Origin: Bacteroidota bacterium
Lineage (GTDB): Bacteria; Bacteroidota; Bacteroidia; Palsa-965
NCBI GenBank assembly: GCA_006218065.1
Contig: VBWE01000024.1
Span: forward strand, 20,656-72,111
Reading direction: 5' to 3'
DNA length: 51,456 bases
A model generated the notes under the pieces. The model searched no databases. It saw nothing but the letters and a program-made list of their open reading frames with translations, and had not been told where the DNA came from. Every line of letters begins with the position of its first letter. Positions within the stretch are counted from its first letter, which is position 1. A program made the translations under genes and the position numbers. This document shows, in pieces, positions 29,070 to 50,061 of the stretch.

Positions 29070-30212
29070 TTATTTTTGGATTAACTGTGATGCTGTTACT
29101 GCTGAAAGTGCAGACAGGAAATAATCGACTTCCGTTTTCCCGGTATTCAGCGGCGGAAGCAGGCGGATCGTTTTTTTGTCGCCCGACGAGCCGGTGAAAA
29201 TGCGGTACTTTTCCAGCAATGTTTTCCGGACGAGGGCAGCAGGCGCTTCGGTTTCCAGGCCGATCATCAGGCCTTTTCCGCGGACTTCTTTTATGCCGTC
29301 GATGGAGCGTATTTTTTCCATCAGCGTTTCGCCGGTTTGCTGCGCGTGTTCCACCAGCTTTTCTTTTTCCATGATCTCCAGCACCGCCAGTCCCGCCGCG
29401 CAGGCCAGGTGATTTCCACCGAACGTGGTTCCGAGCAAACCGTGTTTCGCTTCGAATGCCGGGGAAATCAGCACGCCGCCAATGGGAAAACCGTTGCCCA
29501 TGCCTTTTGCGACAGTAATTAAATCAGGCCCGATCTCCGCAAACTGGTGCGCGAAAAATTTCCCCGTGCGGCCGTAACCGGATTGTACTTCGTCCAGTAT
29601 CAGTACTGCCTGGTGCCTGTCGCAGAGTTCCCGGAGTTTTTTAAGAAAGGTGGCAGCGGGTTCGCGGATTCCGCCCACGCCCTGGATGCCTTCGATGATC
29701 ACGGCGCAAACGTCGCTGCCGATATTCATCGCGGCAAGCGCTTCGTCGTCGAAAGGCAGGAATTTAACCTCGTGCTGCCGGTTGATGGAAGTTGTAATCG
29801 AAGGATCATGGGTCGCAGCGACTGCGGCGGAAGTTCTGCCGTGAAACGAATTGCCGAAAGCGATTATTTTTTTCCTGCCGTTGCGGAAGGAAGCCAGCTT
29901 GAGCGCATTCTCGTTCGCTTCGGCTCCGCTGTTGCAGAGAAACAGGGAATAATCCGGGTACCCGCTGAACCGGCCGAGTTTTTCCGCGAGCTCTTCCTGC
30001 AAACTGTTTTGCACGGCGTTCGAGTAAAAAGAAATTTTTTCCAGCTGCGATTTCAGCCGCGCGGTATAATGCGGATGCGCATGACCAACGGAGATCACAG
30101 CATGTCCGCCGTAAAAATCGAGGTACTTGTTCCCGCTTTTATCCCAGAGCCAGGAACCTGCAGCTTTTACCGGTTCAATGTCAAACAATGGGTAAACGTC
30201 AAATGGTTTCAT
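29070..30212 (-). CDS. argD: N-acyl-ornithine aminotransferase
   Basis: A PLP-dependent class III aminotransferase: N-acyl-glutamate semialdehyde to N-acyl-ornithine with glutamate as donor. From ATG 30212 it has 380 residues (MKPFDVYPLFDIEPVKAAG). The upstream extension to 30260 does not fit the family. The PLP lysine is Lys236 in TVAKGMGNGFP; LCNSGAEANENALK and ILDEVQSGYGRTG are intact. It is separated from argC by 237 bp that hold a heptamer repeat array, the only long gap inside the operon. Confidence 0.94.
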   Translation of the reverse strand: MKPFDVYPLFDIEPVKAAGSWLWDKSGNKYLDFYGGHAVISVGHAHPHYTARLKSQLEKISFYSNAVQNSLQEELAEKLGRFSGYPDYSLFLCNSGAEANENALKLASFRNGRKKIIAFGNSFHGRTSAAVAATHDPSITTSINRQHEVKFLPFDDEALAAMNIGSDVCAVIIEGIQGVGGIREPAATFLKKLRELCDRHQAVLILDEVQSGYGRTGKFFAHQFAEIGPDLITVAKGMGNGFPIGGVLISPAFEAKHGLLGTTFGGNHLACAAGLAVLEIMEKEKLVEHAQQTGETLMEKIRSIDGIKEVRGKGLMIGLETEAPAALVRKTLLEKYRIFTGSSGDKKTIRLLPPLNTGKTEVDYFLSALSAVTASQLIQK

Positions 30213-30291
30213 CGTAGTATGTTTAAAATTCCTCCTGGTTCGTTTTGCATCAACTGTCACGGGAAGTCGGAATAGGTTTTGGTTTAGTTAT

Positions 30292-30403
30292 CCGTTTACC
30301 GTTTACCCGTTTACCGTTTGCCGTTTGCCGTTTGCCGTTTGCCGTTGGATGTCGTCAAAATCTAACTGCTCCCGTTTAAACAAAAACCGCAAACGGTAAA
30401 CGG
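30292..30403. repeat. Heptamer tandem array with inverted partner in the argC-argD spacer
   Basis: Eight consecutive copies of CCGTTT(A/G) (one with an extra C, the last CCGTTGG) fill 30292-30348. After 41 bp, two copies in opposite orientation (30390-30403) are a 14-bp perfect reverse complement of 30307-30320. In the transcript this gives a long stem with several possible registers. Confidence 0.9.
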
Positions 30404-30449
30404 TAATCCAACTCTTTTTTTTAACGAATACATAGTTTTAAATAACCCG

Positions 30450-41572: not shown

Positions 41573-41694
41573 TTCACCGCAGGACGTAAGGAGCGTCCTT
41601 TAAAAAGACTCAGCTAGTCGAAGTCTTAAAGACTTCGACTAGCGAAGACTCTATAAAACAAACTTTAATTACACACTCCCTGCGGTGCGGTGAA
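41573..41694. repeat. Intergenic palindromic element, copy A (GCTAGTCG core)
   Basis: Outer inverted repeats TTCACCGCA (41573-41581) and TGCGGTGAA (41686-41694) enclose a 6-bp hairpin (AGGACG...CGTCCT, 41581-41599) and a strong palindrome, GCTAGTCGAAGTC (41613-41625) with GACTTCGACTAGC (41631-41643). It lies downstream of the dus stop. The core is shared with the element at 49965. Confidence 0.85.
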
Positions 41695-42700: not shown

Positions 42701-42760
42701 CTGTATAAAACGAAGTCTTTATTAACGTGTTAGTTCCTTTTCCCGTAAACCGCGTTACGA

Positions 42761-42922
42761 TTTTCGATTTCGGATTGCCGGTTTGCGATTTAAACGGACA
42801 CTTCGCGTCTTAGCGCCTTAGCGGTAAAAAGCGGATTACAATCTTCACCGCGAAGACACAAAGGCGCTAACGTTTACCCGAAACATAAATCGGCAATCCG
42901 CAATCGGCAATCCCAAATCGGC
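42761..42922. repeat. Heptad-repeat inverted element upstream of the CPBP gene
   Basis: The right arm has five perfect-period 7-mers: AATCGGC, AATCCGC, AATCGGC, AATCCCA, AATCGGC (42888-42922). The left arm (42761-42795) has heptads of the opposite sense (ttttcga, tttcgga, ttgccgg, tttgcga). Between them lies a second imperfect inverted pair (42801-42825 with 42845-42873, agcgccttagcggt against accgcgaagacac). The last heptad directly abuts the promoter box. Confidence 0.85.
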
Positions 42923-48202: not shown

Positions 48203-49903
48203 ATGAAAAAAATCCTGCTGTTCGCATGCATTCCCGTTTTACTTGGTTCCTGCAGCATATTCGGTATTCATTATAAAGTCCACAATCCGAAAAGGGCCGG
48301 CAAGTATCCCGAAAAAACAGAACAGCTGCGTTTGCTGGGCGGGCATTCGAAGTACCGTGACGGTTTCGATGTGAAGCAATACGCGCTCGACATCAGAATC
48401 GATCCTGCAAAGCAATATGTGGGTGGATTGGTGCGCATGGACGCCGTTGCGCTGCGCGATCTCGACACAATACAAATCGACCTGTATCCTGAAATGAAAA
48501 TGCTGTTGGTGCAGAACGGAAAAACCAGTTGCCCGTTTTTCCGCGGCGAGGGAGCGGTATTCATAGTCCCCGGCCCGGTGAAGAAAGGTGAGCGTTTTTC
48601 GCTTTTGTTTGTTTACGAAGGAAACCCCATGATTGCAAAACGCCCGCCCTGGGTGGGAGGAGCCGTGTGGAAATACGATTATAACGGCAATCCCTGGTGC
48701 GGCATAGCCTGCGAAAGCGAAGGCGCCAGCCTGTGGTGGCCCTGCAAGGATATGATGGACGATGAGCCGGATACAGTGCAGGTCAACCTCACCGTTCCTG
48801 CAGGTCTCGTGGCCGTGAGCAACGGACGTTTACAGGGGAGCGAGGAAAAAGGAGAACTCACGACCTGGAAATGGCTCGTTTCATACCCGATCAATGTTTA
48901 TAACGTGACGTATTACGTGGGTAAGTTCAAGCGGGTGCATGATAGTTACGAAAGTGAAGTCACCGGGCAAACGCTGGACCTGGATCATTACGTGCTCGAT
49001 TATAATTACGAACGTGCGCTCAAACATTTCAGGCAGGTGAAAGATCATATCGCCTTGTATGAAAAACGTTTCGGGCCGTATCCCTGGTACCGCGACGGGT
49101 TCAAGCTGGTGGAGTCGCCTTTTGCGGGCATGGAACACCAGACGGGAATTGCGTACGGGAACGGATACACGAACGATTACGAAGGTTTCGACTACATCAT
49201 CCTGCATGAAACTGCGCACGAATGGTGGGGCAACAGCGTTACGGCGGCTGATCTGGGCGACGGCTGGATCCACGAAGGTTTTGCCACATATGCCGAAGCC
49301 CTGTTCGTGGAAGAAACGCAGGGTCGTGACGCGTACCGCAGGTACCTGCTCGATCAGCGGCTGACGATCATCAACCGGCGACCGGTTTCACGTCCGTTCA
49401 ACATGCGGTATTTCAATTACCGCGACGGCGATATTTACCATAAAGGATCGTGGATACTTCACTCGCTGCGCTACGCGCTGGAAAACGACAGCCTGTTTTT
49501 CGACATCCTGGAAACCTTTGCAACGGAAAACGCGCCGAAGACCGTTACCTCGAAAGATTTCATCGCGCTCGTCAACCGAAAAACAGGAAAGGACTATCAA
49601 TGGTTTTTCGATCAGTATCTCTACAACCGTCTTGCGCCGGAAATCGAATATTCCATCGAGAAAGGAAAAATGTATTACCGCTGGACTTCGCGCACGATGC
49701 CGGGATTTAAAATGAAGCAGCGCGTTTCCGGAACCGCCGGCGCCTCGCTGATCGAGCCTGCGCACAAAACCATCCGGGAGTTGGATATCCCGGCGTCAAG
49801 CCTGCCGTACGTTTCGCTTAACGGGAATGATTACCTGGTGCGGATTGTTCGTGTAAAACACCTGCGGCGTGAATTCATGAAACAAAAGGCAAAGGGCGGA
49901 TAG
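48203..49903 (+). CDS. Lipoprotein M1-family zinc aminopeptidase
   Basis: 566 residues. A lipoprotein signal ends in LLGSC (Cys17 lipidated), so it is anchored to a membrane on the periplasmic or surface side. The zinc motif HETAH spans 335-339 with catalytic Glu336, and the third ligand is Glu358 in HEGFATYAE, the M1 spacing of 18 residues. The exopeptidase motif is GMEHQ in place of the canonical GxMEN, which may alter N-terminal recognition. The N-terminal beta-saddle domain (about 50-200) is intact; the C-terminal helical domain is short. The last codons overlap a heptad-repeat arm. Confidence 0.9.
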   Translation: MKKILLFACIPVLLGSCSIFGIHYKVHNPKRAGKYPEKTEQLRLLGGHSKYRDGFDVKQYALDIRIDPAKQYVGGLVRMDAVALRDLDTIQIDLYPEMKMLLVQNGKTSCPFFRGEGAVFIVPGPVKKGERFSLLFVYEGNPMIAKRPPWVGGAVWKYDYNGNPWCGIACESEGASLWWPCKDMMDDEPDTVQVNLTVPAGLVAVSNGRLQGSEEKGELTTWKWLVSYPINVYNVTYYVGKFKRVHDSYESEVTGQTLDLDHYVLDYNYERALKHFRQVKDHIALYEKRFGPYPWYRDGFKLVESPFAGMEHQTGIAYGNGYTNDYEGFDYIILHETAHEWWGNSVTAADLGDGWIHEGFATYAEALFVEETQGRDAYRRYLLDQRLTIINRRPVSRPFNMRYFNYRDGDIYHKGSWILHSLRYALENDSLFFDILETFATENAPKTVTSKDFIALVNRKTGKDYQWFFDQYLYNRLAPEIEYSIEKGKMYYRWTSRTMPGFKMKQRVSGTAGASLIEPAHKTIRELDIPASSLPYVSLNGNDYLVRIVRVKHLRREFMKQKAKGG

Positions 49904-50061
49904 CAAAAGGCAATCCGCGTATTTTAGTGAGATCGTGGAAATGAGACCCTGGAAAAGAGACTTTGCTAGTCGTCGACTCAGTCGACGACTAGCAGAAACT
50001 CTATAACGAGGTCTTTTTTATAGAGTCTATGTGAACTTTGTTTTTTGCCCTTTGCCTTTTG
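49883..50061. repeat. Intergenic palindromic element, copy B, with heptad arms
   Basis: Heptads AAAAGGC, AAAGGGC, GGATAGC, AAAAGGC, AATCCGC run from 49884 to 49918. The inverted arm GCCCTTTGCCTTTTG at 50047-50061 is a 15-bp perfect reverse complement of 49883-49897. In between lie the palindrome GCTAGTCGTCGACT (49965-49978) with AGTCGACGACTAGC (49980-49993), and a 9-bp hairpin (ACTCTATAA 49998-50006 with TTATAGAGT 50018-50026). The left arm encodes the end of the M1 peptidase. Confidence 0.88.

Follow-up and report, generated by a model that had tools for sequence, protein, structure and literature searches.

A heptad-armed palindromic element between argC and argD in a Bacteroidota genome and its likeness to S23-bearing elements

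A sequence that repeats every seven nucleotides in the argC-argD gap of an arginine operon raises the question of what it is and how it came to lie there. To our knowledge, there is no agreed origin for the heptanucleotide repeats of cyanobacteria, Xanthomonas and other bacteria, and we know of no function for the S23 protein; a tie between the two would give both a testable role, in that S23 elements would form a widespread class of mobile elements with the heptads as arms. In the window, that is, the whole stretch of 51,456 nucleotides that we analyzed, TRF identified by far its best tandem array at 30292-30346 (period 7, 7.7 copies, score 80), within the gene order argG-argC-gap-argD-argF. 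The units follow one another as CCGTTTA, CCGTTTA(+C), CCGTTTA, four times CCGTTTG, and CCGTTGG, and CCGTTTRCCGTTTR has 13 matches in the window where 2.07 are expected and 100 shuffles gave at most 5. The array noticed in the preliminary description is therefore real, but its count of eight tandem 7-mers is not exact since the eighth unit is degenerate and the register slips by 1 nt at 30306. Its placement in the long gap of the operon was likewise correct, except that the array makes up just one arm of a composite palindrome of about 225 bp (around 30221-30446), and it is this whole element that occupies the entire gap. The features of the window to which we refer are the following.

30213-30449, no strand: argC-argD intergenic gap (237 bp) with the element
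30221-30235, + strand: left outer end GTTTAAAATTCCTCC (GGAGGAATTTTAAAC on the - strand), 9 bp before the argD start codon; an end common to most family copies
30266-30275, + strand: inner inverted-repeat motif GTCGGAATAG of the left end, from comparison of family flanks
30292-30346, + strand: left arm, heptad array CCGTTTA/CCGTTTG, from TRF and motif search
30347-30381, + strand: conserved core A, GGATGTCGTCAAAATCT..GCTCCCGTTTAAAC, found at 36 places in the genome (reversed control, 0)
30384-30406, - strand: right arm, complementary to the left arm, with an exact 14-bp match at 30390-30403
30434-30446, - strand: degenerate right outer end AGTTTTAAATAAC, recognized by comparison with GGAATTTTAAAC of other copies
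42758-42920, no strand: second heptad-armed element, arms 42758-42792 and 42886-42920 (AATCGGC/AATCCGC), repeated core 42796-42875
49883-50061, no strand: third heptad-armed element, arms 49883-49897 and 50047-50061 (AAAAGGC/AAAGGGC), core C2 palindrome 49960-49996

The two arms of the argC-argD copy can form the stem that had been proposed from the 14-bp inverted copy, which is indeed perfect: none of 1000 shuffles paired equally well or better. The predicted RNA fold of this copy is modest (z -1.6), and the copy is without an S23 ORF, for which 237 bp leaves no room. When the element and the window were scanned against Rfam, the element matched no RNA family above threshold, and the weak microRNA matches obtained reflect long hairpins only. 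On the - strand (window 30210-30235), the end of the element provides a GGAGG located 18 nt upstream of the argD start codon; the insertion could thus supply part of the argD leader, with a spacing that is long for a Shine-Dalgarno sequence.

The element is not alone in the genome (G000, 5.26 Mb). In a 451-kb sample, which stands in for the whole genome in our period statistics, there are five strong runs of 7-nt period and none of periods 4, 5 or 8-13. CCGTTTR arrays recur across the rest of the genome, mostly as inverted pairs, with a conserved core, GGTATTACAGGGATGTCGTCAAAATYTACCTGCTCC(C/G)GTTTAAAC, in between; the family core begins GGATGTCGTCAA, and a search with the core gave the 36 places listed above, against none for the reversed pattern. 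The plan of what we call family 1 consists of a left end (GTTTAAAATTCCTCCGGAGAGCCGTTTTACAGGAAAACTGTT...GTCGGAATAG), a repeat arm, a core, a complementary repeat arm, and a right end (CTATTCCGACGTATAGCAACAGTTTTCCTGTAAAACGGCTCTCCGGAGGAATTTTAAAC, 43 matches in the genome). Altogether, we counted 58 copies at about 55 loci, consistent with the four copies in the sample, which extrapolate to about 47 per genome. The dispersal anticipated in the preliminary description is thus borne out. Several cores are interchangeable within one frame, namely core A, by which the copy in the window was assigned to the family, core B, and the hairpin cores C, D and E. The arms are either of heptad type (CCGTTTA, CAGTTTG) or of a mixed 6/7-nt CAG type (CGGCAGT, CGGCAG), many of them being mixed rather than pure heptads. 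Palindromes are also nested within these elements, as hairpins in hairpins at recurrent positions: both palG (TCCCGATAGCTATCGGGA; L173, L203, L186, L049) and palH (CCTTCGCGTAGCTTCGGCGAAGCAAGG; L180, L193, L199, L202) lie inside the outer ends. The family is genome-specific among the genomes compared since neither the CCGTTTR pattern in 38 relatives nor the right end in the taxonomic family was found above chance. A generic pattern, CCNNTTR x3, was discarded as a statistic because it is cyclically almost its own reverse and its reversed control gave equally high counts.

Arms of the same copy resemble each other more than arms of different copies do. For heptad-type arms, alignment gives 47.2 within and 38.0 between copies (8 of 10,000 permutations), and for CAG-type arms 28.7 against 25.4 (177 of 10,000), the latter in a test trimmed to the arms, as a version with 75-bp flanks failed because the outer ends cross-matched between copies. 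Such matching would be expected if pairing is under selection, or if one arm is rebuilt by copying from the other. It also bears on the simplest account of the array, a plain microsatellite grown by slippage next to a chance inverted copy, which would agree with the near-perfect units and the 1-nt slip at 30306. Inverted pairing that recurs around conserved cores at many loci, with arms that match within copies, makes this account very improbable, and the conserved core already contradicts it.

In five genomes of the same taxonomic family with argC, the distance from the argC stop to the argD start is 1, 1, 1, 2 and 31 bp, and the 237-bp gap here is therefore a derived state, explained by the element. 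Several argC-argD junctions of other Bacteroidota have inverted heptad arms of unrelated sequence, which in Olivibacter, Sporocytophaga and a Chitinophagaceae enclose an ORF belonging to PF05635 (S23), so that heptad elements with and without an S23 ORF share this junction. Other argC-argD gaps of Bacteroidota (L092, L110, L121, L124) contain inverted repeats in which heptads are not clear; the junction thus seems to be a recurrent landing site for several kinds of palindromic element. These data are relevant to the notion of a terminator or mRNA-stabilizing hairpin under selection at this site of the arginine operon, which would account for the position between two operon genes and for the strong hairpins formed by clean copies of the family (z -6.0 for an ORF-less one). 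We regard it as improbable: four of the five relatives with argC are essentially gapless at this point, the copy in the window folds only modestly, and gene context is that of background gaps. The ORF-less copies lie in 24 tandem, 13 convergent and 11 divergent gaps, without operon bias, and the convergent share (13/48) shows no excess over background (27/136).

The window contains two further heptad-armed elements, the arrays at 42888 (a right arm) and 49884 (a left arm) each having an inverted partner, absent from the preliminary description, that 0 of 1000 shuffles equaled. The core of the second (42796-42875) is also present in L048 and L041, and the palindrome at the core of the third is likewise a repeated one. 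The idea that all three arrays belong to one dispersed class holds for architecture and for the 7-nt period, but not for the units, whose sequence varies between elements while the period stays 7 (or 6-8). The tandem arrays of consensus AAnnGGC that had been envisaged are instead paired arms belonging to discrete elements, whose cores and outer ends are conserved.

What links these elements to S23 is the setting of the S23 genes themselves. This genome has four PF05635 genes, each of them bracketed by inverted 6/7-nt arms whose unit classes are those of the ORF-less elements: GCAAAAG (as at 49884), GCAGTA, CGGCAGT (as in family 1) and CGATTGG (as at 42888). Moreover, one of these elements (L241) shares with family-1 copies a frame, TCGGAATA..TACTAAGCGGCAGTCGGCAG, with E values down to 6e-8. 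In a tree of S23 proteins, three of the four form one clade despite their differing arms, the fourth not being placed. An S23-bearing element is predicted to fold as RNA with its arms closing around the ORF (z -5.5).

The association extends well beyond this genome. We surveyed 73 S23 loci, almost all of them in genomes of other Bacteroidota, using 120-bp flanks and scoring an inverted repeat when at most 1 of 100 shuffles did as well. An inverted repeat flanks 49 of the 73, about a third being without a significant one, and 37 of the 73 have strong lag-7 periodicity, as compared with none at lags 4, 5, 10 and 11 and with 3, 6, 1 and 1 at lags 6, 8, 9 and 12. Control ORFs in this genome gave 6/138 for inverted repeats and 4/138 for lag 7; at the argC loci of other Bacteroidota the figures were 17/542 and 47/542, the last being raised because the argC-argD elements themselves contribute. 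On cyanobacterial plasmids, lag 7 was found at 11 and an inverted repeat at 9 of 14 S23 loci; read by eye, the heptads are inverted at one Azospirillum plasmid locus and in direct orientation at a Gemmatirosa locus. Similarity of S23 proteins follows similarity of arms (Mantel r 0.17, 0/500), the trend being weak between cyanobacterial and other loci (r 0.10, 47/1000). The cyanobacterial proteins are interspersed among those of Bacteroidota in the tree, which suggests horizontal transfer. At 48 of 61 loci the S23 gene is in sense with both neighbors, and at 6 it is antisense to both, a strong bias against a 50:50 insertion null and a modest excess (Fisher 0.011) over the same-genome background, itself sense-biased at 136 to 53. 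The median arm run is 38 nt, in a distribution that the detection threshold trims from below. At seven loci (L245, L248, L254, L260, L263, L322, L324), the arms seem to repeat every 8 nt instead of every 7; several of these loci cluster in the S23 tree, and period length may thus be a trait of S23 lineages.

Known systems offer a model for how such an element could work. In the 23S rRNA intervening sequences (IVS) of Leptospira and Coxiella, an S23 ORF is enclosed by complementary termini that pair into a long stem, and in Coxiella tandem heptamers (GACAGAT), variable in number between strains, precede the ORF, and the IVS is excised by RNase III (PMC4990558). Stem-forming complementary termini are shared by our argC-argD copy. 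In contrast, the IVS sits in a 23S rRNA helix, whereas the copy here lies between argC and argD and other elements lie between protein genes; the IVS has an S23 ORF, which is missing here and present in four other elements of the same genome; and here both arms are built of period-7 units. S23 of Xanthomonas is a homopentamer, as cited in PMC4990558, the structures 2gsc and 2rld each have five chains, and the family resembles, in sequence and fold, Avd of the diversity-generating retroelements (PMC10053308), to which one S23 that we examined gave a sub-threshold bAvd match.

Taken together, these data lead us to consider it rather probable that what lies between argC and argD is an inserted descendant, without the ORF, of selfish S23-type elements with heptad arms; its two complementary arms enclose a conserved core of about 35-50 bp. 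Complete members of the class would have a PF05635 ORF (S23/IVP, an Avd-like four-helix bundle) between period-7 arms. The copy in the window fits through its inverted 7-nt-period arms around a core and, via family 1, through the frame in common with L241. Such elements would insert at gene junctions, mostly in sense within operons, and would loop out of the host transcript in the form of a long hairpin; their arm units would change through slippage, and the second arm would be kept matched via copying or template switching. From the plan of the Coxiella IVS, the S23 homopentamer and the resemblance to Avd, we infer that the arms are probably bound by an S23 pentamer, which would help the elements to spread and would act in trans on copies lacking the ORF, the argC-argD copy included. 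Set against a simple form of this model are the family-1 ORF-less copies, placed like background gaps, the modest fold and missing ORF of the copy in the window, the third or so of S23 loci with no significant inverted repeat, the many mixed 6/7-nt arms of family 1, and a RAYT gene that adjoins an alternative core, so that another enzyme may move ORF-less copies.

This last point leads to a different origin, a MITE- or REPIN-like palindrome moved by an unrelated transposase such as a RAYT, with heptad arms as incidental slippage products inside inverted repeats and S23 as a passenger in the same hairpin-prone sites. The genome has two Y1_Tnp genes, one directly followed by core C2, and family-1 elements have long outer inverted ends and nested palindromes. 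As in bacterial MITEs, there are inverted outer ends (the right one degenerate in the window), no ORF, an intergenic location and about 55 copies; internal heptad arms, interchangeable cores and the lack of a parent transposon recognized by motif search set family 1 apart. Genome-specific dispersed palindromes are also typical of REP/REPIN with RAYT (PMC3733652), but the GTAG/CGTC tag of REPs is absent from the family-1 ends (GTTTAAAATTCC / GGAATTTTAAAC), both Y1_Tnp genes, on reading, carry core C2 or another palindrome instead of a family-1 element, and family 1 is a composite of about 225 bp with repeat arms. No transposase was recognized between outer ends in a motif search, 37 of the 46 right-end places having a left end no more than 400 bp away, and S23 is associated with heptads also in genomes and phyla without family 1. 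We therefore judge this origin unlikely. A search for an autonomous transposon with family-1 ends, by motif only, recognized none within 1.4 kb of the 46 right-end places, and by eye the flanks of family copies have no consistent target-site duplication. The RAYT-like Y1_Tnp gene (L231:1447-2200; G000:C24, around 47.5-48.3 kb) is followed by a C2 palindrome, TCTGCTAGTCGACGACTCAGTCGTCGACTAGCGAAGAC, of the same kind as that at 49960-49996, and by about four tandem units of about 29 bp, possibly a REPtron for C-type cores. A further C-type palindrome, AGCTAGTCGAAGTCTTAAAGACTTCGACTAGC, lies at 41599-41657 of the window and has relatives at several places in the genome.

An origin through S23-type elements would also alter how described heptamers are read. 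The preliminary description aptly likened the array to cyanobacterial heptanucleotide repeats. As in STRR and TAACTGA repeats, reported from Cyanobacteria, Beggiatoaceae and some Bacteroidetes (PMC4679880), we see dispersed, intergenic, tandem heptanucleotides in a Bacteroidota host, a likeness at the level of description; those repeats were described as direct, without a core, pairing rule or S23 ORF in the descriptions found. Where it knew of no described equivalent in Bacteroidota, described relatives do exist in the heptamers of the Coxiella IVS (PMC4990558) and in Xanthomonas, which has 70-75 intergenic inverted pairs of GGGAATC per genome, generally without association with mobile elements (Rehm 2015, PMC4692102). 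The Xanthomonas unit differs from ours, and the link to S23 was not made there. Our literature search, in which subscription journals were poorly covered, returned no paper in which S23 genes and period-7 arms are joined as a class; this link is apparently new, inverted heptamer pairs, heptamer arrays, and S23 in IVS and cas loci having been described separately. Tentatively, and with considerable doubt, many dispersed bacterial heptanucleotide repeats (STRR, Xanthomonas GGGAATC, TAACTGA, Bacteroidota arrays) might be arms of one cross-phylum class of selfish hairpins around an S23/Avd-like pentamer, in which the 7-nt period would correspond to a heptad for each S23 subunit along a single strand, the arms would comprise some five heptads, and ORF-less copies would spread in trans. 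If S23 elements are mobile and heptads are their arms, the S23 genes in CRISPR and biosynthetic operons would be insertions and not functional parts. 23S_rRNA_IVP is listed among the proteins of cas loci (PMC3936711), where insertion may explain its presence, and we observed S23 genes flanked by heptads or octads in CRISPR operons of cyanobacterial plasmids at L313, L318 (cas6-S23-cas4) and L324 (cas10-S23-cmr3).
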